Below are positions 1 through 21,893 of a stretch of 21,900 nucleotides of DNA, in pieces; position 1 is the stretch's first letter, and each line of letters opens with the position of its first letter. The notes beneath the pieces were generated by a model. The model made no database searches. It was given only the letters and a program-made list of their open reading frames with translations, and had not been told where the DNA came from. The stretch spans positions 1 to 21,900 of the IMG/VR virus record IMGVR_UViG_3300025652_000641; one strand, 5' to 3'. Made by a program: the position numbers and the translations under genes. This DNA is from a virus.

Positions 1-105
1 CAAGAGGTTGGGATTGATCACCCGTAAAAGGTCCTAAAAAGTGGGAGGGACGAAAAGTAACCGTTAGTATTCACCATACGAGTGTGAACCACAACTAGAT
101 TTTAT
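1..105 (+). ncRNA. Structured RNA module A, upstream of a tRNA-like element (5' end outside window)
   Basis: No convincing reading frame lies here. Short helices can be drawn: GGTT at 6-9 with AACC at 59-62, GGG 10-12 with CCC 21-23, and TTCAC 70-74 with GTGAA 84-88 around a 9-nt loop. It shares TTGATCACC (14-22) and ACCGT (60-64) in the same order with the segment upstream of the second tRNA-like element (693-701 and 763-767), so the two may be copies of one RNA type. The tRNA-like element follows directly, so RNase P cleavage before position 106 could give this RNA a defined 3' end (inference). The strand is taken from the tRNA-like element and the flanking genes. An untranslated leader is the alternative. 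Confidence 0.4.
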
Positions 106-169
106 AAAGCATATGGTACAAGCACACTTATGTAATGGTGCTTGGTAGGTTCGATTCCTGCATGCTTTA
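106..169 (+). ncRNA. tRNA-like element 1, without D-arm or canonical anticodon arm
   Basis: A perfect 7-bp acceptor stem is formed by AAAGCAT (106-112) and ATGCTTT (162-168), with A169 in the discriminator position and no encoded CCA. The T-arm is canonical: GTAGG 145-149, loop TTCGATT 150-156, CCTGC 157-161 (one G-U pair). The D-arm is reduced to ATGGTA (113-118), which keeps a GG that could contact the T-loop. In place of the anticodon arm is a 7-bp helix, CAAGCAC 119-125 with GTGCTTG 138-144, closing a 12-nt loop, so no anticodon is presented. At 64 nt it is shorter than a decoding tRNA. The geometry resembles RNase P/RNase Z substrates such as mitochondrial t-elements and mascRNA. It is probably a processing signal or a decayed tRNA rather than a translating tRNA. 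Confidence 0.7.
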
Positions 170-198
170 CTACATATAAACACTAATAACATTTTACA

Positions 199-432
199 AT
201 GGCACTCAAGAAAACAAAAAGAAAGAAAGTAGACAAAATACTAAGAAAACTAAAAAAGAAAGTTAGTGATTACTCTAGTCAATTAGGTTTCTTACCTAAT
301 GGACAGCCATCACAGCTATCACAGTTAGATATTAATAGTTTATCACATACTTCGTATGCAGATTTAAATATTAGTAGATATTATACTACTAGTTGGTATA
401 ATAGAGTAGATAACTTTCAAGGACTATATTAG
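199..432 (+). CDS. Small basic hypothetical protein, 77 aa
   Basis: This frame begins ATGGCACTC after an A/T-rich leader with no Shine-Dalgarno sequence, as is usual in Bacteroidota phages. The first 22 residues are very basic (KKTKRKKVDK and KLKKK), suggesting contact with nucleic acid. The rest is rich in Ser, Tyr, Leu and Asn with no recognised motif. It sits between the first tRNA-like element and the next gene, whose ATG follows its TAG stop with no gap, so the two are probably translated together. No family is recognised. The gene call rests on the uninterrupted frame, the spacing and the downstream coupling. Confidence 0.65.
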   Translation: MALKKTKRKKVDKILRKLKKKVSDYSSQLGFLPNGQPSQLSQLDINSLSHTSYADLNISRYYTTSWYNRVDNFQGLY

Positions 433-696
433 ATGACTAAGTTTATAGTATTTAATACTCTTGCACAAGCGGAAGACTATGCAAGACGTAGACAGAAACC
501 ATTTAAACATGGACAAGTCTCAGATCCAGAGTATCCTGAACTATTATCAATATACTTTGTAATTGATAAAAAGCGTAAACGTGTGTTATGTAAAACTTAC
601 ATTGACTGTGGTAGATGGAATAATCCAGACATATGTGTTGATGTTATAGGTAGATATAAACAAACTACCGCATCAAAAAAAAGGCGTGAAGGTTGA
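433..696 (+). CDS. Hypothetical protein, 87 aa
   Basis: The ATG abuts the TAG stop of the preceding gene. The product alternates hydrophobic and charged residues (SIYFVIDKKRKRVLCKTYI), which suggests a small beta-rich fold, and it ends in a basic tail (KQTTASKKRREG). No catalytic motif is visible. Its TGA stop (694-696) lies in the loop of a small hairpin (AAGGT 689-693 with ACCTT 699-703) that opens the second structured RNA module. Ribosomes finishing this gene would therefore run into that structure. The function is unknown. It may form a two-gene unit with the 77-aa protein before it. Confidence 0.65.
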   Translation: MTKFIVFNTLAQAEDYARRRQKPFKHGQVSDPEYPELLSIYFVIDKKRKRVLCKTYIDCGRWNNPDICVDVIGRYKQTTASKKRREG

Positions 697-821
697 TCAC
701 CTTTAATCTTTATAGGAACAAAATCCAGGGTCTATAGAGTAGCATAAAATCTCGGTGTGGTGACCGTCAATGATGTACAAAAGAGAGTGTATTAGATCAA
801 TACACTCTCACATCTTCTTAT
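689..821 (+). ncRNA. Structured RNA module B, upstream of the second tRNA-like element
   Basis: The 226 bases between 697 and 922 contain no reading frame worth calling. Visible helices are AAGGT 689-693 with ACCTT 699-703, CGGT 753-756 with ACCG 763-766, and a perfect 11-bp hairpin, GAGAGTGTATT 783-793 with AATACACTCTC 799-809, around a 5-nt loop. The hairpin is followed by ACATCTTCTTA rather than a U-run, so it is not a clear terminator. TTGATCACC and ACCGT occur in the same order as in module A at the left edge, and again a tRNA-like element follows. The simplest reading is a small phage RNA whose 3' end is set by cleavage at the tRNA-like element (inference). It could instead be the structured leader of the gene at 923. 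Confidence 0.45.
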
Positions 822-862
822 AAAGCAAATGGTTAATGTGAGTTCGATTCCCACATGCTTTA
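822..862 (+). ncRNA. tRNA-like element 2, acceptor plus T-arm minihelix
   Basis: The acceptor strands AAAGCAA 822-828 and ATGCTTT 855-861 form six pairs with one A-A mismatch next to the T-stem. The T-arm is GTGAG 838-842, loop TTCGATT 843-849 and CCCAC 850-854, with one A-C mismatch. Only nine bases (829-837) lie between acceptor and T-arm, and they keep the ATGGT seen in element 1. There is no anticodon region, so it cannot decode. The 41-nt shape is close to the minimal acceptor/T-arm substrate known for RNase P. A862 would be the discriminator, and CCA is not encoded. The flanks TTATAAAGCA and ATGCTTTACTA are shared with element 1. The mismatches lower confidence in its stability. Confidence 0.6.
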
Positions 863-885
863 CTATGCATAAGCATAATCAACAA

Positions 886-922
886 CTATTTATTAATTAA
901 TTACTTTAAAACAACAAGTAAA
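886..922 (+). promoter_or_regulatory. Leader motif shared with the gene at 1604
   Basis: CTATTTATTAA (886-896) and TTTAAAACAA (905-914) precede the ATG at 923. The same two words, spaced 4 instead of 8 bases apart, precede the ATG at 1604 (1571-1581 and 1586-1595). In both cases the motif lies downstream of a hairpin and is followed by an A-rich stretch running into ATG. It may combine a phage promoter-type element with the A-rich initiation region used in Bacteroidota. The match to the host -7 promoter consensus (TAnnTTTG) is poor, so a role as promoter is only suggested. Confidence 0.35.
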
Positions 923-1513
923 ATGGAGAAAAATCCACAAATCAGAATCGAGCGTGTACGAAGTACAGCAAACAAGCAAGTAGTTCAACTTGAACTAAGA
1001 AAAGAACAAGCATCATCAACTGATGGTAGTTTATTAAACATGTCTTTAGGTAGTCGTGCTAAGAAATATGTAGACTGGTTCCCAGTTGACATTAATTTCC
1101 TTGAAGCATATGGTTATGACTTTGACGCTGTTACATTAGGTAACATAGTAAACGCACCTAAGCAAGAGATGACTCTTGACGGAGATAATCTATTCAATAA
1201 CCACTTAACAAGAGTGAGTGATGTAGAAATATCTACTCGTCCAGGTGAGTTATTTCTAGAAGAGTTTCCAGTTGTAGATTTATTTATAACTGAATCATTT
1301 AGCCCATCATACGATGGACACAACCCTAAGCAGAATCCTTCTACTAAAGAAGTGATGTGTAAAGAGGGACAGCCTATCTATTGGCAGTGTAAAACTAAAA
1401 TAGCTGAACACGAAGAGTCATTTGACACATTCATCCAAGCTGATGGATCTAAAGAAGCAGGTGCAAAAGCTGACGCACTTGTAGAAATGATGTCTAACGA
1501 GTTAGCAGATTAA
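923..1513 (+). CDS. Hypothetical protein, 196 aa, monocistronic unit
   Basis: The frame begins at ATG 923 after an A-rich leader. The product is acidic overall and soluble, with no membrane segment and a Glu/Asp/Ala-rich C-terminal tail (ADALVEMMSNELAD). The middle part (about residues 50-130) looks beta-rich, with segments such as FPVVDLFITESF. A single-stranded-DNA-binding or structural accessory role would fit such a composition, but no family signature is recognised, so no function is assigned. It stands alone between a structured RNA and a strong terminator at 1542-1571. That isolation suggests its own promoter and possibly high expression, unlike the tightly packed genes downstream. Confidence 0.8.
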   Translation: MEKNPQIRIERVRSTANKQVVQLELRKEQASSTDGSLLNMSLGSRAKKYVDWFPVDINFLEAYGYDFDAVTLGNIVNAPKQEMTLDGDNLFNNHLTRVSDVEISTRPGELFLEEFPVVDLFITESFSPSYDGHNPKQNPSTKEVMCKEGQPIYWQCKTKIAEHEESFDTFIQADGSKEAGAKADALVEMMSNELAD

Positions 1514-1541
1514 ATTAGATTGTAGTAAGTCTAAGTTAAAT

Positions 1542-1571
1542 GAGAGTACTGGTGTAACAACCAGTGCTCTC
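1542..1571 (+). terminator. Strong hairpin terminator after the 196-aa gene
   Basis: GAGAGTACTGGT (1542-1553) pairs with ACCAGTGCTCTC (1560-1571) over 12 bp with one T-G pair and a 6-nt loop. TATTTATT follows. It lies 28 bases after the stop at 1513. The downstream U-tract is interrupted, as is common for terminators in AT-rich phages. Confidence 0.75.
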
Positions 1572-1603
1572 TATTTATTAAAAGTTTTAAAACAAATAAG
1601 AAA
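1571..1603 (+). promoter_or_regulatory. Second copy of the leader motif
   Basis: CTATTTATTAA (1571-1581) and TTTAAAACAA (1586-1595), then ATAAGAAA and ATG 1604. It matches the leader at 886-922 apart from the spacer between the two words. The first word starts at the last base of the terminator hairpin, so part of the similarity could be terminator tail rather than promoter. Confidence 0.35.
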
Positions 1604-1855
1604 ATGATAACAGTAACTTTTGTATTAGCAGTTATAGCTAACATTATTGCAGTGTTTACATTATTAGTGAACATGTCTACAGACAAAGCATTGCAAGATT
1701 TAGAAAATGGTGTTAGAGAATGTATAGCATATTCACGAACTAATAAGCTACTTATTGACACTTTAGACAATAAAGTAAACAAACCTAAAGCTAAAAGAGG
1801 TAGACCAAAGAAGAATGTTAAACCTGTTGTGCACCACCTCAATGGAAAGCAATAA
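1604..1855 (+). CDS. Small membrane protein with AT-hook-like basic motif, 83 aa
   Basis: Residues 2-24 (ITVTFVLAVIANIIAVFTLL and following) form one clear transmembrane helix without a cleavage site, so the protein is probably membrane-anchored with its longer part on one face. Residues 27-58 look helical and charged. Residues 62-70, KAKRGRPKK, match the core of an AT-hook (RGRP), which binds the minor groove of AT-rich DNA in other proteins. A membrane anchor plus an AT-hook could tether phage DNA to the membrane, but this is inference from two short signals. The gene follows a terminator and a leader motif, and it overlaps the next gene by 14 nt. Confidence 0.65.
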   Translation: MITVTFVLAVIANIIAVFTLLVNMSTDKALQDLENGVRECIAYSRTNKLLIDTLDNKVNKPKAKRGRPKKNVKPVVHHLNGKQ

Positions 1856-2129
1856 GGAATTTATTACTCGTATGGCAGTGATGCTCAACGAGTTACCAGA
1901 AGAAAAGAGGCGTGATTATTTCACGCTTCTTCCTTTTTTAGACGTACAGTTAACTCTTAGAGATAATTTGTTTATTATTGAATTAATGACTAATCTTGAG
2001 TTTCATTTAATAGAAAAATTAGATTGGTATGGTAGAGCAAAGATTAAAAAACAACTCCGAGAAGAACTTAGAAATTTCTGTGACACAAGTAAACATTCTT
2101 TCTCGTTTTATGACGATGACAAAGAGTAA
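1842..2129 (+). CDS. Hypothetical helical protein, 95 aa
   Basis: The frame can be opened further upstream at 1815, but ATG 1842 is preferred. It gives the short 14-nt overlap with the previous gene that is typical here, and the upstream extension would lie wholly inside that gene. The product is rich in Leu, Glu, Lys and Arg and predicted helical (RDNLFIIELMTNLEFHLIEK), with an acidic end (YDDDKE). No known family is recognised. It overlaps the small frame at 2110. Confidence 0.6.
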   Translation: MESNKEFITRMAVMLNELPEEKRRDYFTLLPFLDVQLTLRDNLFIIELMTNLEFHLIEKLDWYGRAKIKKQLREELRNFCDTSKHSFSFYDDDKE

Positions 2130-2229
2130 GTGTAACAAATTTTGGGCCGTAAGGCATATAGATAGAATATTAAAAATACTAAACAGACATCTAAATGATA
2201 CAATTCGTAGGAAACCCAAAGCTTCTTGA
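2110..2229 (+). CDS. Small basic peptide, 39 aa, linking to the polymerase gene
   Basis: The frame starts at ATG 2110 (or ATG 2116, 37 aa) inside the end of the 95-aa gene and stops at 2229 inside the start of the polymerase gene, filling the gap between them. The product is strongly basic (WAVRHIDRILKILNRHLNDT, then IRRKPKAS) and could form one amphipathic helix. Support comes from the way it bridges the gap and from the local habit of overlapping genes. Against it are its length and the use of already coding DNA at both ends. No function can be suggested. Confidence 0.45.
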   Translation: MTMTKSKCNKFWAVRHIDRILKILNRHLNDTIRRKPKAS

Positions 2230-4069
2230 TTGCTGTGCTACATGTACAGATCTAGAACCTGTAATAAACTATTGTAAAGACAAGAAAATACTTGCAATAG
2301 ACACTGAGACTACAGGATTGAATCATATTGACGACAAAATGATTATGTTTCAGATAGGTGATAAAGATGTGCAGTTTGTTATTGATACAAGATACATAGA
2401 TATAACACCTCTTAAATTCATACTAGAAGATCCTGGAATACTTAAGATACTACACAATGTTAAGTTTGATTACAAGTTTATTATGAAATATAATATTAGA
2501 CTTAATAATGTATGGGATACTATGCTAACTTCACAGGTTATACATTGTGGTAAACAGATGTCACATAGCTTACTAAATGTTCTTGAAAGAGAGCTAAATA
2601 TAACTATGGATAAATCTATAAGAGCTAGTTTTATTATAAAAGGTAGCGATGAGTTCACTGAAACAGAGATCAAGTATGGTGCTAGAGATGTAGAATATCT
2701 TATAGAACTATATAATAATCAAACAGTTACAGTGATACAGCATAATCTTATACATACAGCAGAACTTGAGAACAAAGCTGCGCTAGCGTATGCAGACATC
2801 GAGTACAATGGTATTGGTTTGGATAAAGATAACTGGATTAAACTTGCACAAAAAGCAGCTTACAAAGTTACAAGTATGTGCAACACTCTAGATACATACA
2901 TAGAATCTAATCCAAAACTTAATAAGTTTATAGATGATTATGTACAAGGTGATTTATTTATGGATGTAACACAGCTTAGAAAAGTAAATGTAAAATGGTC
3001 ATCACCAAAACAAGTGTTAGATGTATTTAAAACATATGGTTTAGATGTGGAAGATGTGAACGGTAAGAATTTATACGTGCACAGTAAAGATCCATTTGTT
3101 AAAACCTATATTAAGTACAAAGAGCAAGCCAAACTGGCTACAAGTTATGGTGATAAGTTCTTTGAGAATGTAGATAGTGACGGCAGAGTTCGCACAAGCT
3201 TTAAACAAATACTAAATACAGGTAGAGTTGCATCAGGTAGACCCAATATGCAACAGATACCAGCACACAATGATTATCGTAATTGCTTTGTTAGTGGTTA
3301 TGATGATTGGGTATTTGTATCAGGCGACTACAGCTCACAGGAGCTATGTATTATAGCCACAGGGAGTAAAGACCCAGTGTGGATTAAAGCGTTGGAAGAT
3401 GGAGAAGATCTTCATAGCGTGTGTGCAGATTTAGTTTATGGCAAAGAATGGCAAGATGCAGCAGACCCTGATTGTGCTTATATGCAATCAAAAGCTAAAT
3501 GCAATTGCAATAAACACAAGAAGCTGCGCACAAATGTAAAAAGTATAAACTTCGGTTTAGCCTATGGTATGGGCCCACACAAACTAGCTGATACATTATT
3601 AATAACTATCAAAGAAGCAGAAAGATTAATTCAGAAATACTTTACAGCATTTCCTGCAATTAAAAACTTTCTTGAGTCTCTTGGTAATTATGGTAAGCAG
3701 AATGGACATATTAAAACATATGCACCATATCGTCGTATTAGATGGTTTGAAGAGTGGCAAGGACATAATACAGATAAGGCTGTAATGGGTAAGATAGAAC
3801 GTGCTAGCAAGAACACACCTATACAAGGTAGTGGTGCTGACATGTGTAAGTCTGCACTTGTTATGGTACGTGATTATATACATCACAACAACTTACCTGT
3901 TAAACTAGTGATGACAGTTCATGATCAGATCGACACAATTGTACATAAAAGCTACGCAGACACGTGGAAATACACATTGCAAGACATCATGGAAACATCA
4001 ACACTAGATATTATACCATCAGGGCTACTAAAAGCAGAGACAGAAATATCAACAGTATGGAAAAAGTAA
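2195..4069 (+). CDS. polA: DNA polymerase, family A, with 3'-5' proofreading domain (624 aa)
   Basis: Replicative phage DNA polymerase of the Pol I type. The N-terminal DnaQ-like exonuclease shows Exo I with D36 and E38, Exo II with N88 and D92 (HNVKFD), and Exo III with Y161 and D165 (YGARD), so proofreading should be active. The polymerase part shows the template-primer motif NTGRVASGRPNMQQIP (341-356), motif A with D378 (DYSSQE), motif B with K449 and Y457 (KSINFGLAYG) and motif C with H576-D577 (VHDQ). There is no 5'-3' exonuclease domain, as is usual for phage enzymes. Between motifs A and B, C427, C436, C438 and H441 form a possible metal-binding insertion. The SF2 helicase gene begins inside its last codons. 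Confidence 0.96.
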   Translation: MIQFVGNPKLLDCCATCTDLEPVINYCKDKKILAIDTETTGLNHIDDKMIMFQIGDKDVQFVIDTRYIDITPLKFILEDPGILKILHNVKFDYKFIMKYNIRLNNVWDTMLTSQVIHCGKQMSHSLLNVLERELNITMDKSIRASFIIKGSDEFTETEIKYGARDVEYLIELYNNQTVTVIQHNLIHTAELENKAALAYADIEYNGIGLDKDNWIKLAQKAAYKVTSMCNTLDTYIESNPKLNKFIDDYVQGDLFMDVTQLRKVNVKWSSPKQVLDVFKTYGLDVEDVNGKNLYVHSKDPFVKTYIKYKEQAKLATSYGDKFFENVDSDGRVRTSFKQILNTGRVASGRPNMQQIPAHNDYRNCFVSGYDDWVFVSGDYSSQELCIIATGSKDPVWIKALEDGEDLHSVCADLVYGKEWQDAADPDCAYMQSKAKCNCNKHKKLRTNVKSINFGLAYGMGPHKLADTLLITIKEAERLIQKYFTAFPAIKNFLESLGNYGKQNGHIKTYAPYRRIRWFEEWQGHNTDKAVMGKIERASKNTPIQGSGADMCKSALVMVRDYIHHNNLPVKLVMTVHDQIDTIVHKSYADTWKYTLQDIMETSTLDIIPSGLLKAETEISTVWKK

Positions 4070-5235
4070 GTTCTAGAACAGAGAGGCAGCTTGAGATAGT
4101 TCAGAAGTTTGCTGATAATAAAGGTAAAGGTACACTGCTAGCAGCTACAGGCTTTGGTAAAACTTTCACAGCTATTATGGTTATTATAAGATTATTGAAG
4201 GCTAGGAAAGACGGTAGAGTTATTATTGTTGTGCCTACAATTAATCTTAAGAATCAGTGGAAGAAAGAGCTAAAGCAAAACAAAGTACATAATAGCTGCG
4301 ATGTAATTGTCATTAACACTGCGTATAAAAATAAACTTACATGTGATTTACTTATATGTGATGAGATACATGCTTATGGCGCAGAACAGTTTATTAAAGT
4401 ATTTGATAAGATTACATATCAGTTTATATTTGGTTTGACAGCTACAATAGAACGCTCAGATGGTATGCATGAAGTATTACTAAAGTATGCACCTGTTATT
4501 GATGAAGTTCCTATTGAAGAATGCCATCAGAATGAGTGGGTTAGTGATTACCTTGTGTACAATCTAGCTGTACCTATGTATGATGATGAGCAAATTGCAT
4601 ATGATAAAGCAAACAAGAAGTTTAGGTATGCCGCAGGTAGACTAGGCTTTGGTGGTGCACAATCATTTAATAATGCTCGTAAGTATCTACAAGACAGTAG
4701 TGCTGATCCTGGATTACGTGCAGCTGCAGCTATATATTATAACTCTATGCGTGAGCGTGGTGATATATGTAAGAATTCTCAAGCTAAAATACCTGTTATT
4801 AAAGAGTTGCTAGAAAAGTTTGATGACCGTAAAGCCTTGCTATTCAGTGCTTCAACTAAATTTGCAGATGAAGTACAAGAAGAGTTAGGTGATGTGTGTC
4901 TAAGTTTTCACAGTAAACGTACAAAGAAACAGCAGGTAGAAATACTTAAGAAGTTTAAGGATGGACGTACAAAACAGCGTGTAATTAGTAGTGTTAAAGC
5001 TCTGAATGCAGGTTTTGATGTCCCTGACTGTTCTCTTGGTATTGTAGCTGCAGGTAATTCTAAGAAACTTGATAATATACAACGTACTGGGCGTATTATT
5101 AGGTATGTCCCAGGTAAAACAGCAATTATTATTAATCTCTATGCACCTAACACGCAGGAAGTTTCGTGGCTTAACAAGCGACAGGAAGGACAGAATGTAG
5201 TGTGGGCTGAAAGCATAGAAGAAATTACAGTATAA
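4057..5235 (+). CDS. Superfamily 2 DNA helicase, DEIH type (392 aa)
   Basis: ATP-dependent helicase or translocase of the XPB/UvsW-like branch of SF2. Walker A is ATGFGKT (30-36) and Walker B is DEIH (102-105). Motif III is TAT (128-130), followed by ERSDG. In the second RecA domain, FSASTKFADEV, the NAGFDVP segment and motif VI QRTGRIIR are visible. An in-frame opening at 3964 would lie deep inside the polymerase gene. ATG 4057 fits the first helicase motif (RTERQLEIVQKF) and gives a 13-nt overlap, so it is chosen. Its place beside the polymerase suggests fork remodelling, branch migration or annealing during recombination-dependent replication. The next small gene starts on the last base of its stop codon. 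Confidence 0.93.
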   Translation: MEKVSSRTERQLEIVQKFADNKGKGTLLAATGFGKTFTAIMVIIRLLKARKDGRVIIVVPTINLKNQWKKELKQNKVHNSCDVIVINTAYKNKLTCDLLICDEIHAYGAEQFIKVFDKITYQFIFGLTATIERSDGMHEVLLKYAPVIDEVPIEECHQNEWVSDYLVYNLAVPMYDDEQIAYDKANKKFRYAAGRLGFGGAQSFNNARKYLQDSSADPGLRAAAAIYYNSMRERGDICKNSQAKIPVIKELLEKFDDRKALLFSASTKFADEVQEELGDVCLSFHSKRTKKQQVEILKKFKDGRTKQRVISSVKALNAGFDVPDCSLGIVAAGNSKKLDNIQRTGRIIRYVPGKTAIIINLYAPNTQEVSWLNKRQEGQNVVWAESIEEITV

Positions 5236-6143: not shown

Positions 6144-6219
6144 TATACAAAACTTTATCAATGAAGCTAATTCAAAAGGTAAAGAGGAAGACATTTCTGA
6201 TACGCCACTCAGGCCGTAG
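6049..6219 (+). CDS. Small acidic coiled-coil-like protein, 56 aa
   Basis: The frame starts at ATG 6049 inside the 59-aa membrane gene and ends at TAG 6217-6219 inside the radical SAM gene. Residues 8-34 (ERLDRHEKVIEKLIDQVAKL, then QVANNIQ) have a clear heptad pattern of a coiled coil, followed by a polar tail. Small holin-associated or lysis accessory proteins can look like this, but nothing proves that role. The good heptad pattern despite overlap at both ends makes it likely to be translated. Confidence 0.55.
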   Translation: MSVEENSERLDRHEKVIEKLIDQVAKLQVANNIQNFINEANSKGKEEDISDTPLRP

Positions 6220-7021
6220 CACAGATTTTATATCTCCATCCTTTGGCTATGGCTGCTTATATAATTGCTCATATTGTTATATGAAACGCCATAAGCCTGA
6301 AGGATTGAGTGTGGCCACTAACATTGGTGATATACTTACAGAGTTAAACAACCATGCATACTTCACACCAGTGGAGAAACCCAATCAGACACATGCAGAG
6401 TATACTACGTACGACATTAGTTGTAATGAAGACTTTGCACTGCATGCTAAATACTATGATTGGGAAAGGATCTTTGCATTTTTTAGAGATCATCCTGTTG
6501 CAATGGGTTCGTTTGCTACTAAATATGTTAATCCAAATTTAATTAACTTTGATCCGCAAGGTAAAATACGTATTAGATTTAGTTTGATGCCGCAGTACAT
6601 GTCAACATTGCACGAACCAGGTACATCTAAAATTATAGATAGAATTAAAGCTATCAATGCATTTATAGAGGCAGGTTACGATGTACATGTTAACTTTAGT
6701 CCTGTTATCGTAGAAGATAATTGGCTAGAGGATTACGAAGAACTGTTTGATATGCTTAACGACTATGTTGAGTATAAAGATCAAGTTAAAGCAGAAGTAA
6801 TATTTTTAACACATAATAAAAAGAAACATGAAGAAAATTTAGTAAAGCACCCTGAAACAGAAGTACACCTATGGAATCCTGCAATCCAGGAAGAGAAAGT
6901 CTCGCAGTACGGTGGAACTAACATAAGGTATGCTAGACATTTAAAGTATTTGTATATAGATGCATTTAAAGCTTTACATGAAAAGATTATACCTTGGAAC
7001 ACAATAAGATATATATTTTAG
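6161..7021 (+). CDS. Radical SAM protein, spore photoproduct lyase/DNA photolyase-like (286 aa)
   Basis: The cluster motif GCLYNCSYCYMKRH carries C32, C36 and C39 in the CX3CX2C spacing that binds a 4Fe-4S cluster and S-adenosylmethionine. The following Tyr and the region YTTYDISCNEDFALHAKYYD, then VNFSPVIVEDN, resemble the SplB-like group (COG1533), members of which repair thymine dimers in spores or are uncharacterised phage enzymes. A DNA repair or base-modifying role is therefore plausible but unproved. The protein is shorter than Bacillus SplB (about 340 aa). The start at ATG 6161 overlaps the preceding small gene by 59 nt. The alternative is another radical SAM activity, such as nucleotide modification. 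Confidence 0.85.
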   Translation: MKLIQKVKRKTFLIRHSGRSTDFISPSFGYGCLYNCSYCYMKRHKPEGLSVATNIGDILTELNNHAYFTPVEKPNQTHAEYTTYDISCNEDFALHAKYYDWERIFAFFRDHPVAMGSFATKYVNPNLINFDPQGKIRIRFSLMPQYMSTLHEPGTSKIIDRIKAINAFIEAGYDVHVNFSPVIVEDNWLEDYEELFDMLNDYVEYKDQVKAEVIFLTHNKKKHEENLVKHPETEVHLWNPAIQEEKVSQYGGTNIRYARHLKYLYIDAFKALHEKIIPWNTIRYIF

Positions 7022-8825: not shown

Positions 8826-9829
8826 GTGAAGAACACAAACCTTTACCATGGCGCCATATATCTAAAGCGTCTAGTGCAGCATTGCGCTATATAGACGGTA
8901 GAAGAAAAGGCGAGATTAAATCTTTAGCTACCCCTTGGAAAAAGTTTAATAGAATTTCTATGGGTGGTATAGAATGGCAGACTATCACAACTATTGCTGG
9001 TATGTCTGGTAGCGGTAAGACTGCAATACTCGGCCAACTTGAGACAGGATTGAAAGATCTTAATCAAGAGGAAGATTTTGCAATGCTCTCATTTAACTTT
9101 GAGATGTTATCCTCACGGCTGATTGGCCGTAAACTTAGTAATAAGATGAATATTACTACACAGCAGCTGTATAGTGCGTCAGACACATTTAAACTGAATG
9201 ACAATTACTATATGAATGCAGTACAGGAAGCTCGTAAGTTAAATAAGTATGATATAAATTACGTAGATATACCAGGTAGTGTTAAATCTTTAGAAGCTAC
9301 AATATTAGCTTTTTCTAAAGAAAAGAACAAACCTGTTATAATTATGTTAGATCATACTCTACTTGTAAAGAAGGTGGGCGGTGCGCAGGATAGAGATTTA
9401 CTCTATGATTTGATGGCTATGTTTAATGGTTTAAAAAAGGTTATTAGGGTGGCATTCATTCTAATATCTCAAATGAATCGTAACATCGAGGCATCAGAGC
9501 GTATACAAAACCCTGATTTACATTACCCTAAGAAGCAAGACATTTTTGGTGCAGATGCATGTTATATGTATTCTGACATTGTTATTGTAACACACAGACC
9601 AGAAATGCTTGGTATTAGGGCATACGGCCCAAAGAGATGGCCTACAGATAATGCTATATTTTGGCACTATCTGAAGGTTAGGGAGGGCGAGCCTTGCATT
9701 GCTTTAATGGAAAATGATTTGGCTCATAATCAAATATTAGATGCTAAACCACCAACCTATTCAAGCAATGAAAGTAAAGAAGTACGAGAAGAGAGTGTCG
9801 GTGATACTCTTGAACAAGCCCAAGGCTAG
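8822..9829 (+). CDS. Replicative DNA helicase, DnaB/RecA-like SF4 ATPase (335 aa)
   Basis: Fork helicase of the DnaB type. Walker A is GMSGSGKT (60-67). FNFEM (91-95) places the catalytic Glu at 94. Walker B is VIIMLDH with D177. ISQMNR (215-220) is the motif with the conserved Gln. YPKKQDIFGADACYMYSDIV matches the C-terminal DnaB pattern. Bacterial DnaB is about 450 aa; this protein lacks the N-terminal primase-interaction domain and is essentially the ATPase domain. The start overlaps the preceding stop (ATGA), and GGAGGAG lies about 7 bases upstream, one of the few Shine-Dalgarno-like sequences in the window. Confidence 0.92.
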   Translation: MSEEHKPLPWRHISKASSAALRYIDGRRKGEIKSLATPWKKFNRISMGGIEWQTITTIAGMSGSGKTAILGQLETGLKDLNQEEDFAMLSFNFEMLSSRLIGRKLSNKMNITTQQLYSASDTFKLNDNYYMNAVQEARKLNKYDINYVDIPGSVKSLEATILAFSKEKNKPVIIMLDHTLLVKKVGGAQDRDLLYDLMAMFNGLKKVIRVAFILISQMNRNIEASERIQNPDLHYPKKQDIFGADACYMYSDIVIVTHRPEMLGIRAYGPKRWPTDNAIFWHYLKVREGEPCIALMENDLAHNQILDAKPPTYSSNESKEVREESVGDTLEQAQG

Positions 9830-18659: not shown

Positions 18660-18795
18660 TATCTATAATTATAAAAATTTGTATTAATCCTAAAAAAAAT
18701 TGTATTTCATAGTAAGGAGCATATTCTTCTGGTTGGAAATGTCTAATCCCAAATAATAATCCTTTTGCCCATTGTATTCCAAAAGCTATCTTCAT
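18631..18795 (-). CDS. Small membrane peptide, 54 aa
   Basis: The frame runs from ATG (complement of 18793-18795) to TGA (complement of 18631-18633). It starts on the last base of the giant gene's TAA (TAATG on the - strand) and overlaps the structural-type gene by 29 nt. Residues 33-45 (FFLGLIQIFIIID and upstream QPEEYAPYYEIQ) form a hydrophobic helix following a more polar part (MKIAFGIQWAKGLLFGIRHF). This coupling on both sides makes it likely a real gene. It may be a holin-like or membrane-bound virion component, but that is not shown. Confidence 0.6.
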   Translation of the reverse strand: MKIAFGIQWAKGLLFGIRHFQPEEYAPYYEIQFFLGLIQIFIIIDNGNTYDNTD

Positions 18796-21700
18796 TATTT
18801 TACTGGTTTATATAAGAATCCTAATGCTTCGTCTATTTTTCTACCTGTTTGGTACCATATAGGAACTAAATCTTTGAATTCTTTTTCAAGTTTTAATGTC
18901 CCTTTACGTTTACCTTGTGTGTATGTTTCAAATTCACCTCCCATACTTACAGCTGCAATATCTGAGTAAAGTTGATCCATTAATTCAATACCATTTTGTA
19001 TTAAACTTATAGATGCTGCAGGAGATCTTAATATTCTAAGCCCTTCTGTAATAGATGTAAATGCTCTAAGTTCTGAATACAATCTACGTGTGTAGAATGC
19101 GGTTAACATCATAAGAGCTTTTTGTTTTTCATCATCTTCATCTTGTGCTGCTGAATATAGTAAAGCACTAACGTTAGCGGCTATAAGCATTATAGTCATT
19201 TCTGTTACAGTCTTTAAAATATTAGCTTTTTCTCTAGCAGATAGTTTAGCCCAGTTATCAGTTGTTAGCTCTAAAGAGAATTTTTTATAATCTCTAAATA
19301 GATTTCTAATAAATCTAACTGTAGTTGTATATGTACCCTCATCTAGATCTTGTATTTCTCTACTGTAGTACAAATCTTCTGCCGTAAGCGCTTCATTTGG
19401 TATTAAAGATGTTCCTATACCTCTATATCTTCTACGTATTCCTGGTTCTAACCATTTTCTAAGCATAAATGCTAACTTACCTACAGCATGTCTTTGCGCC
19501 ATAGCTTGGTTATTTGTAGTGTAGTTACCGTTTAGTCTACGATTTAAATGATTCAGGTATCTTTTTACTTGAAATTCAGCTTTTCTTCTATCTTTTAAAG
19601 ATATTTCTAACCCGCTTTTAAGCTCTATTGATGCTCCTGTTCCTACAAAAGATTTTATCTTAAGTCTAGGGGCCTTTCCTTTATTGTCTATCTCATAGGC
19701 TTCATCATAAGTCATAGCTTCTTCTCTTGACTTAACAACCTCCCCTTTTTTATTTATATATTCCCCTTTAGAATTTTTAACTTTTATTCCTTGTAAAAAC
19801 GAATACATTAATGTGTTTTGTATATAGTGTTCTGCTATATTAGTTACAAAATGTAAAGAGTTGGTATCTGCAATCTGACTAGTTTTTGTTGCACCTGCAA
19901 ACTTTTTTGCTACAGCGCTAAAATCTTGTGTTGATTCAAATATTTCAGATAATAACCCTGTTTTAGAGCTAGGTACAATTTTACCTATGTCTCCTGTGAT
20001 GTTAACTATATCTGCATCATATTTTAACTCTGCTTTTGCAACATCTTTTTTATTAAAATCTATACCACCTACAGATTCTATAAACGTCATAGTTTTACCT
20101 TGAAATACAGAAGCTCCTGCAGAGAAATAGTTACCTATTAAAAACAGGTTCCCTGTATACTTCATTAAAGAAGATGTTAGTTTTTGCATAAATGGATTAC
20201 CTAGAGCTTTAACTCCATACAATCTGTCTTCTATTAAACTACTTAAAGCTTTATAAGAGTTAGACTGATCTCCAGGAACTGTTGCAGGTGTTTGATCTCC
20301 AAACCCTAGCTTTGCAGCTATTTTAGTTTTACCGCCTAAAGTTCTTTGAACCACTTTTCTTGTAGCTAAAGATTCTCTAAATACTTCTAGCATAGGTAAT
20401 GCCTTATATTTTTCTGCATAGTTTGTAGACCCCCAATAATCCATTAGATATATACTAAGCAAATCATAAGACTGTGTCTTTGCATTTACTTTATTATAAT
20501 TTCTAAAATATTTAGGTATTGTTTTTAACTCAGTTGTATCTGCGTCTACAAGTACTTTAATTTGTCTTTTTAAAGTATTCCAAACTTCCATTTCCACTTC
20601 GTCTGGATTCTCTTTATGCAATTCTATATCTGATGCTCTTACCTTAAAACTATCTCCAAGACCAGCTCTTACCCAATCTATTACACCGTTTTCAAAAACA
20701 TTCTCTAACCCTGATTTTTCTATAGCAGGTAATTTAAATCCTGCAGGGTGCCCTAAGTAGTTTTGATCTCTTTTATTTGCAAGGTCTGTTAAGAATTGGT
20801 ACATATCATAATTAGCTTGCCCTTTATTTTTTTTATCTCTAAAATATGCAAACTTAGGGTTATTCCATTTAGATGCAGGTTTATATCCATCCTGATCTTT
20901 AACTTGGTTTACTCTAGACCATTGAGTGTAAGCTCTTTTAGCTGCTATAGCTTCATTACTCTCTTCTCCAAACTCTTCCTCTGCTTCTTTCAAAGCATTT
21001 ATTTTTTCTCTTCTTTGTATATAATACTCTGATTTAATAGGACCTATTAAATATCCTGTTAAATTACCTTTTCCATCTTTTGCTAGTAAGTCATCATACA
21101 ATGTTTGCATGTTTCTAGTATCTTTTCCAACTTTAAATCGCTCGAATAGATCATACGCTTCTTTTGTTTTATTTATAGTCTCGCGCATTACATTATAGTC
21201 TGCAGAGTCTAATATTTCTACAGCTATTTGTACTATCTCATCAGTAAGATCTCTAGGGTTACCAAATAATGCATCAAGAAAACTAATATCTTGACTTTTA
21301 TTTATTAGCATATTTTTAATAGATGCTTTCTGACTGTCTTTTATAGACTGCTCTTCTTGCTTTACTCTATTTGCTACATGCTCGTCTAATGCTTTTTGAT
21401 AATCTGCTTTCTTAGCTCCAGGGTTATTTCTTAACCAAACACTTCTAGGTTCAAAAGCATTTCTAAATCTTCTTTCCGCAAGCCTTAACTGTTTTCCAGG
21501 CAACTCTCCCCAAACATCTCCTATTCTATCTACGTATCCCTCAATTAATCTTTTTCTTGTACTAACTATACGAGATACTAAATCTTTATACTTTATACCT
21601 TTCTTTTCAAAGTATTTTTTTATTGCAGGACTTTTAGTGTCTATTAAATAAACAACATCCTCAATAGCATTAAAATATGTAAACTTAGTTAAGTTCTGAT

Positions 21701-21893
21701 AGTAATCGGATACGTCTAGAGCTAAATTATCTAGCGCTTTATTTACATTAGTAAGTAATGTATCTACTTCTTGCACATATTCTGCAAGCCCTATTTCTGT
21801 ATTTTTTACTTTTAAACTAGTTAGTATCTTTTCTAACTGATTCTTTAATCTTTCTTTAGCACGACGTCTAACATCGTCCTTTGCTTTCATCAT
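18795..21893 (-). CDS. Giant virion-associated protein, C-terminal part (1032 aa, probably incomplete)
   Basis: The frame begins at an ATG 7 bases from the window edge and has no in-frame stop before the edge, so it may continue upstream into a larger protein. The visible part is mostly helical with many Lys/Glu/Asp residues, long coiled-coil-like stretches near residues 1-250, and a region about residues 830-870 (HAVGKLAFMLRKWLEPGIRR, then RYRG) that recurs in very large phage virion proteins. A stretch with hydrophobic residues near 930-950 (TVTEMTIMLIAANVSALLYS) could contact a membrane. It fits a large polyvalent or internal virion protein, perhaps injected with the DNA. No enzyme motif is visible in this part. 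Confidence 0.7.
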   Translation of the reverse strand: MMKAKDDVRRRAKERLKNQLEKILTSLKVKNTEIGLAEYVQEVDTLLTNVNKALDNLALDVSDYYQNLTKFTYFNAIEDVVYLIDTKSPAIKKYFEKKGIKYKDLVSRIVSTRKRLIEGYVDRIGDVWGELPGKQLRLAERRFRNAFEPRSVWLRNNPGAKKADYQKALDEHVANRVKQEEQSIKDSQKASIKNMLINKSQDISFLDALFGNPRDLTDEIVQIAVEILDSADYNVMRETINKTKEAYDLFERFKVGKDTRNMQTLYDDLLAKDGKGNLTGYLIGPIKSEYYIQRREKINALKEAEEEFGEESNEAIAAKRAYTQWSRVNQVKDQDGYKPASKWNNPKFAYFRDKKNKGQANYDMYQFLTDLANKRDQNYLGHPAGFKLPAIEKSGLENVFENGVIDWVRAGLGDSFKVRASDIELHKENPDEVEMEVWNTLKRQIKVLVDADTTELKTIPKYFRNYNKVNAKTQSYDLLSIYLMDYWGSTNYAEKYKALPMLEVFRESLATRKVVQRTLGGKTKIAAKLGFGDQTPATVPGDQSNSYKALSSLIEDRLYGVKALGNPFMQKLTSSLMKYTGNLFLIGNYFSAGASVFQGKTMTFIESVGGIDFNKKDVAKAELKYDADIVNITGDIGKIVPSSKTGLLSEIFESTQDFSAVAKKFAGATKTSQIADTNSLHFVTNIAEHYIQNTLMYSFLQGIKVKNSKGEYINKKGEVVKSREEAMTYDEAYEIDNKGKAPRLKIKSFVGTGASIELKSGLEISLKDRRKAEFQVKRYLNHLNRRLNGNYTTNNQAMAQRHAVGKLAFMLRKWLEPGIRRRYRGIGTSLIPNEALTAEDLYYSREIQDLDEGTYTTTVRFIRNLFRDYKKFSLELTTDNWAKLSAREKANILKTVTEMTIMLIAANVSALLYSAAQDEDDEKQKALMMLTAFYTRRLYSELRAFTSITEGLRILRSPAASISLIQNGIELMDQLYSDIAAVSMGGEFETYTQGKRKGTLKLEKEFKDLVPIWYQTGRKIDEALGFLYKPVK

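Follow-up and report, generated by a model that had tools for sequence, protein, structure and literature searches.

The window analysed here, the whole 21.9-kb stretch formed by positions 1 to 21,900 of the IMG/VR virus record IMGVR_UViG_3300025652_000641, carries two small tRNA-like elements on its plus strand, E1 (106..169, 64 nucleotides (nt)) and E2 (822..862, 41 nt). Neither element can decode. We conclude that E1 and E2 are probably mini tRNA-like elements through which host tRNA-maturation enzymes would set the ends of phage RNAs. Their geometry is that recognised by ribonuclease (RNase) P and RNase Z, and the identity of the acceptor is not conserved; these facts fit a role as RNA punctuation. 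The reading of the two elements given in an initial annotation of the window thus proved largely right, and its interpretation was supported in part.

Structure and detection of E1 and E2

E1 has an acceptor stem (106-112/162-168, 7/7 pairs), a T-stem (145-149/157-161, 5/5 pairs including one G-U), the T-loop UUCGAUU (150-156), a GG at 115-116 and the discriminator A169, which corresponds to A73; near-identical copies occur in the records L004, L008 and L009. The minimal E2 has an acceptor stem of six pairs (822-827/856-861, 6/6) followed by the unpaired A828.A855, a T-stem (838-842/850-854) with four of five pairs and an A841.C851 mismatch, a T-loop at 843-849, a GG at 831-832 and the discriminator A862 (A73). 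In both elements the acceptor is followed by AUGGU, which resembles a D-loop, and the T-loop reads UUCGAUU. At the place of the anticodon arm, E1 shows a 7-bp (base pair) hairpin (119-125/138-144) with a 12-nt loop and E2 shows nothing. The acceptor and T-arm geometry and the GG in a reduced D region, both described in the initial annotation, were therefore confirmed from the sequence. It had also stated that an anticodon arm of canonical size is missing. This holds in that neither element has a 7-nt anticodon loop; E1, however, is not plainly arm-less. The cuts that it predicted, 105/106 and 169/170 for E1 and 821/822 and 862/863 for E2, agree with the structural numbering of the two elements.

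ARAGORN found no tRNA in the window, and no Rfam family, tmRNA (transfer-messenger RNA) included, matched the window at the gathering score. When Rfam was scanned by E-value, E1 and E2 matched only tRNA-Sec and plastid entries, all below threshold. The elements of relatives scored 17-25 bits with RF00005, below the tRNA cut-off of 29 bits. The 7-bp acceptor, the 5-bp T-stem and the UUCRANN T-loop of a tRNA are present, many members having six acceptor pairs plus one mismatch. The chance expectation of the geometry scanner was 0.15 matches per 215 kb per strand. E2 scored 64.3 bits with model R1 and 62.1 bits (E = 1e-14) with model R2, scores that are partly due to construction because both models include E2. 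E1, which was absent from the training set of R1, scored 37.1 bits with that model (E = 5e-6). The minimum free energy (MFE) fold of E1 is the assigned tRNA-like structure, with a z-score of -2.5; the folds of the short elements have only modest energies.

A covarying family in unrelated phages

Judged by their sequences, E1 and E2 belong to a family that is common to many unrelated phages and is typically ~42 nt long (40-95 nt with insertions). The exact pattern derived from E1 and E2 was found in 11 stretches of IMG/VR, the records of which are possibly fragments, and further relatives were collected via the family A DNA polymerase (PolA) and via the open reading frame (ORF) downstream of E2. 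The elements in the 11 stretches are 44-65 nt long, with common ends and differing middles. Some relatives have wholly different stems (AAGAGTA/TACTCTT in L016, GAAACAG/CTGTTTC in L062), and the middle is a bare 9-12 nt, a longer insert or a covarying hairpin (CAAGCAC/GTGCTTG versus CAAGAAC/GTTCTTG). In the alignment A7 of these elements, 10 of 12 pairs showed changes on both sides, and 94% of the cells were paired, as compared with 30-48% when the partner strand was slid.

The wider family was collected with two patterns. The first, in which D-like and T-loop bases were fixed and the gap was too short for a real tRNA, matched at least 119 viral stretches, some of which were ordinary tRNAs in another register. 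Among the matches listed, 114 were distinct; the free T-stem pairs were complete in 102 of them (shuffled mean 12) and the acceptor hexamer was complete at one register in 38 (shuffled mean 1). The stricter pattern, which fixes only ATGGTTAAT...GGTTCGATTCC and no acceptor base, matched 55 viral stretches and seven genome stretches, five of the seven lying in metagenome-assembled genomes of Bacteroidota. Its 43 distinct matches formed the three free T-stem pairs in 42 cases (shuffled 6.2, maximum 14) and the full acceptor in 31 (shuffled 1.5, maximum 6), with 28 different acceptors. In the alignment A8 of 20 diverse elements, from which model R2 was built, 11 pairs were 99.5% paired, all six acceptor pairs covaried, and 107 double-change cells were counted against 32 after shuffling. 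The T-loop and AUGG were fixed in the patterns used for searching, so that the invariance of these parts is no evidence. The initial annotation had proposed that its reading would fall if the stems were not kept by compensating changes in homologous phages; such changes were observed there and in unrelated phages as well (A7, A8 and the 43 matches).

In a free search, the acceptor helix of 54 out of 74 elements was found to end, on its outer side, at tRNA position 71-73, which indicates that the 12-layer ruler of a tRNA is kept and its sequence is not. A 12-layer coaxial stack of acceptor and T-stem with the T-loop at a fixed distance, as expected of an RNase P substrate, is thus present in the family. 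Among the matches listed, 39 acceptors were found, base 73 was A in 20, C in 14, G in 9 and T in 6, and the stretch from acceptor to T-stem clustered at 10-12 nt. The strict shape and the free acceptor point to enzymes that read shape, not to a synthetase.

These observations bear on two other explanations. One is that the elements are decayed tRNA genes, or pieces of tRNA left by integration at attachment sites, conserved by descent alone. Fragments of tRNA commonly arise through integration (PMC9897764). Attachment-site fragments, however, keep one side of the tRNA without a re-closed 5' acceptor strand, whereas both strands are present here and covary. The 10-12 nt clustering also speaks against remnants, as does the near absence of canonical tRNA genes from the crAss-like records, and we consider this origin hardly credible. 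The other explanation is a released 42-nt RNA acting in trans as a tRNA mimic, which might be CCA-tailed, modified or aminoacylated, or might act as a decoy that draws in tRNA enzymes or defence nucleases directed at tRNAs. The UUCGA of the T-loop and the elbow GG are invariant in the alignments, beyond the needs of a bare RNase P hairpin, although this invariance is partly forced by the search patterns. A few elements encode CCA; it was seen after A73 in a single contig group only, where two of the three elements in tandem have it (L003 type, ACCA). A six-fold tandem array in L117 also favours a mimic. On the other hand, the freely varying acceptor sequence and base 73 speak against any one synthetase, an RNA lacking an anticodon is no bait for anticodon nucleases, and most elements are single copies at a gene junction. 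Action in trans is therefore rather improbable.

The array in L117 (IMGVR_UViG_3300028883_000018, reverse strand, ~8984-9680) consists of six mini elements separated by G-poor, AAC/ACA-rich and apparently unstructured spacers of 106-157 nt. Flavobacterium phage FL-1, which has been isolated, carries one element between genes (KY421186.2, 7246-7290), and a longer version (AGCGGTA...TACTGCT) occurs in 712-type phages of Lactococcus. In gut crAss-like genomes, model R1 gave only weak matches (E 0.01-0.07), and the match in W05 lay within an ordinary tRNA array. A tRNA-like RNA of ~100 nt with a conserved internal block, GTTGCTAATATTGGCC.TAGGGTGGAGCTTATACCTCCATA, was seen in L232 (1430-1530) and L234 (1431-1529); it occurs in 24 phage records (Escherichia, Pectobacterium, Vibrio, Klebsiella and Pseudomonas), in part annotated as tRNA-Ile. 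In the openly accessible literature that was covered on tRNA-like elements in phages, crAss, GOLLD and RNase P, to which the first GOLLD paper (2009) does not belong, we found no description of the family.

Elements at the 3' border of GOLLD RNA

Earlier work places GOLLD RNA (RF02032) close to tRNAs, with tRNA-Met upstream of it (PMC12286853). In the crAss-like records L016, L071, L072 and L073, a GOLLD match in Rfam (197-308 bits) lies directly 5' of the element; the same arrangement was found in large phages rich in tRNAs (L172, L187, L196, L215, L289, L299, L306 and others). The mini element at this border is outside the Rfam match and is unmentioned in the papers found. Three crAss-like contigs (L016, L073 and L110) have a second tRNA-like element 5' of GOLLD.

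A scan for the conserved GOLLD motif, blind to the element, yielded 48 loci. Thirteen loci outside a group with terminators had enough downstream sequence: ten had a mini element (in L256 a 93-nt version), and at the same place one had a canonical tRNA-Gly and two had tRNA-Gly-like genes. The canonical tRNA-Gly (L253, IMGVR_UViG_3300043410_001471) stands at +85 from the GOLLD motif, the exact position of the mini element. The tRNA-Gly-like genes (L238 and L240) stand at about +84, have an abnormal T-arm (GGGGGAGCGAAACCTTC) and were not called by ARAGORN. A third, near-identical GOLLD group has an intrinsic terminator at that place in all but one of the examples listed. Because some GOLLD loci are the same or near-identical contigs, lineages and not loci should be counted. 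At the GOLLD 3' border, the element is thus exchangeable with a true tRNA or another end signal. Since the element stands between genes or at the end of GOLLD, where relatives have a tRNA or a terminator, it probably marks a cut site for the host enzymes that trim tRNAs.

The terminator group could suggest that the element itself terminates transcription. Nearly all listed elements, however, lack a U-run after the stem, and same-strand genes continue right behind the element in the window and in L163 and L118. We regard a terminator function as very improbable.

Several phage records encode a tmRNA (L078 at 4339-4728, and L172, L187, L288, L289 and L306), which in the GOLLD phages lies ~1.2 kb upstream of GOLLD. 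The GOLLD stretch of L016 and its downstream protein had no match in named phages, and no GOLLD was detected in the window, where 697-820 is only similar-looking and its assignment to GOLLD is unsupported.

Gene junctions and leaders

A regular arrangement was found in L163 and L118, which represent one phage type. Their genes form modules of one to four, and behind each module, 0-12 nt past the stop codon, stands an element, succeeded by a hairpin (e.g. UUGACAC-AACC-GUGUCAA) and then by AGGAGG-AUG, a Shine-Dalgarno sequence with the start codon. Some of these elements have five acceptor pairs only and lower scores. No canonical tRNA gene was found in L163 and L118. The TTGACA behind the L163 elements was considered as a promoter and rejected, because it forms one arm of the hairpin (TTGACAC-GTGTCAA) and a search there found no promoter that has a -10 box. 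Behind 21 of 58 distinct elements, E2 included, a hairpin starts within 12 nt (7-12 in control windows, 5.5 after shuffling). The elements lie at junctions of genes or RNAs on the sense strand. A third recurrent context is a conserved ORF of 69-79 amino acids (aa) (MSNLISKRFVLRKSLIGKNVTIEF...) with the element 5-108 nt behind it, seen in nine contigs (L105, L120, L131, L138, L170, L186, L206, L207 and L218).

In the relatives of the window, the element lies on the sense strand before PolA, mostly 50-144 nt 5' of the start of one diverged ORF family, and hairpins 5' of the element are seen in these leaders too. This constant place before one ORF family would be explained if the element were an uncut cis-regulatory leader, whose tRNA-like fold controls translation of the next gene by binding the protein encoded downstream (autoregulation), the ribosome or a factor that recognises tRNA. 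A precedent is the mRNA of T4 gene 32, which encodes a single-stranded-DNA-binding protein (SSB) and is regulated through its leader. The earliest report of an mRNA as a substrate of RNase P concerned this same transcript (PMC11143913). Against a leader of this kind, the element is not tied to one gene, since it also stands behind the 69-79-aa ORF in nine phages, behind GOLLD and before tRNAs, and it can be replaced by a canonical tRNA or a terminator. Regulation in cis is therefore an unlikely explanation.

An upstream reading frame was likewise considered, since a frame that begins at ATGGT runs across the T-arm (e.g. MVQVQVRFLHA). It was rejected. The frames differ between E2 and its relatives and the bases change in pairs, which indicates that the constraint acts on the RNA.

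Proposed mechanism and comparison with known systems

We propose that the element folds within the phage transcript and retains only the parts that tRNA-maturation enzymes would recognise, namely the 12-layer acceptor/T-stem helix, the T-loop and the GG, which may insert into the T-loop and so build the elbow of a tRNA. Host RNase P would cut on the 5' side (105/106 and 821/822). The cut behind the discriminator (169/170 and 862/863) would be made by RNase Z or by a different nuclease of tRNA 3' processing. The upstream RNA, whether GOLLD, another structured RNA or an mRNA, would gain a defined 3' end. The downstream mRNA would gain a new 5' end, often starting with a hairpin, ahead of the ribosome-binding site. 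Directly 3' of E2, the small hairpin UAUGC-AUAA-GCAUA (864..877, plus strand, found by folding) may form such a 5' end structure after a cut at 862/863.

RNase P is known to cut hairpins made of acceptor, T-stem and T-loop, the rest of the tRNA being dispensable (PMC11143913; PMC11221534), and in hairpins built exactly like this the cut falls at the correct position (PMC11143913). The model substrates pATSer hairpin and MD1 duplex likewise have only an acceptor plus T-stem of 12 bp and a T-loop; these were designed for use in vitro, whereas the phage elements are natural, keep the GG of the D-loop and lack a fixed RCCA. Host RNase P cuts other phage RNAs, as we propose for the mini elements, but C4 antisense RNA, M3 RNA and gene 32 mRNA are single cases, and the mini elements form one recurrent, covarying family. 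In mitochondrial tRNA punctuation and in tRNA-spaced phage transcripts (T4), tRNA-shaped elements also stand at junctions, and their cleavage by RNase P together with a 3' endonuclease is presumed, a likeness most developed in L163 and L118; the present elements differ in that they do not decode, lack an anticodon arm and a D stem, are ~42 nt long and occur in phages of bacteria. The tRNA-like processing signals beside long RNAs, mascRNA and t-elements, are eukaryotic or organellar and near full size, whereas the phage elements are minimal. The tRNA-like domain of tmRNA shares the acceptor, the T-arm and a reduced D region without a D stem; the phage elements have a variable acceptor and lack the G3.U70 alanine identity pair and the mRNA domain.

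Several observations weigh against this mechanism. The MFE fold of E2 differs from the T-arm fold despite the strong family match, and E2 carries A.A and A.C mismatches. An RCCA, preferred by type A RNase P, is generally missing, the 3' sequence being mostly ACUA, with CUA or other bases past position 73. The GOLLD loci come from few lineages and are not independent counts, and the downstream hairpin is enriched yet far from universal. In addition, relatives of 80-96 kb carry a single element locus, always at the same place, and the elements are not scattered as general punctuation would be; a cis-regulatory leader would give the same picture. In some records this single locus holds two or three elements (three in the L003 type). 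The proposal of punctuation marks in the initial annotation is thus supported by the bracketing of GOLLD, the replacement by tRNA-Gly or a terminator and the junctions in L163 and L118, but not by the single locus in the relatives of the window.

Genomic context in the window

The window derives from a crAss-like phage. Its family A DNA polymerase (2195..4069, plus strand; phrog_17, E 1e-104) is closest to those of crAss-like phages, with 26-30% identity in tblastn, and the best named relatives are Crassvirales. Window positions 1-2400 had no match in named phages. An ORF of 77 aa (199..432) starts 29 nt past E1, and an ORF of 87 aa (433..696) follows it between E1 and E2, both on the plus strand. 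The non-coding leader at 697-821 (plus strand) holds a 9-bp hairpin (783..809) upstream of E2. E2 lies in the leader of a conserved ORF of 196 aa (923..1513, plus strand), just upstream of PolA. The same element also leads the homologues of this ORF, which are 162-231 aa long and 27-36% identical from one subfamily to another. From its place before PolA and the C-terminal EDIPF of some homologues, the product is probably an SSB. This identity was not supported by the fold prediction, which was too poor (predicted local distance difference test 46.6), or by any match in Pfam, PHROG or PDB.

Other features were noted in the window and in the leaders of its relatives. A spore photoproduct lyase homologue (6161-7021; Pfam PF20903, 89 bits) is encoded in this crAss-like phage, and an ORF of 1032 aa on the opposite strand (18795-21893, minus) has no Pfam match. 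A mobile 78-nt module, in which AATAAGTACAAC...GTTGTACTTATT closes an inner fold, lies upstream of the elements in varying order (L052 at -174..-96 relative to the downstream ORF, L053, L063, L069 and L073), the non-coding leaders being mosaics of such modules. In L061 (2789-2887), an element has an insert in which a further T-arm-like hairpin occurs (ATAGG TTCAATT CCTGG), so that it looks like an element nested in another. A Pistol self-cleaving ribozyme lies between genes in L073 (1140-1209), the same crAss-like contig that carries GOLLD, and is another possible maker of RNA ends.

Implications

If the proposed mechanism is correct, phages have stripped the tRNA down to what RNase P and RNase Z read, and this remainder serves them as a general punctuation of RNA. 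A layer of transcript processing that is now hidden would then come to light in phages, the origin of the GOLLD RNA ends would become approachable, and natural minimal RNase P substrates would be available in many sequence variants. The mechanism would also explain structured 'degenerate tRNAs' that annotation tools drop. Flavobacterium phage FL-1, being an isolated phage, allows a direct test of the idea of tRNA punctuation. We put at about even the chance of a broader view, in which phages of many lineages share a minimal natural substrate of host tRNA maturation as a portable cut mark, which would free the GOLLD nanocage RNA, give leaders a 5' hairpin and, in some phages, separate every gene module as tRNAs do in mitochondria.
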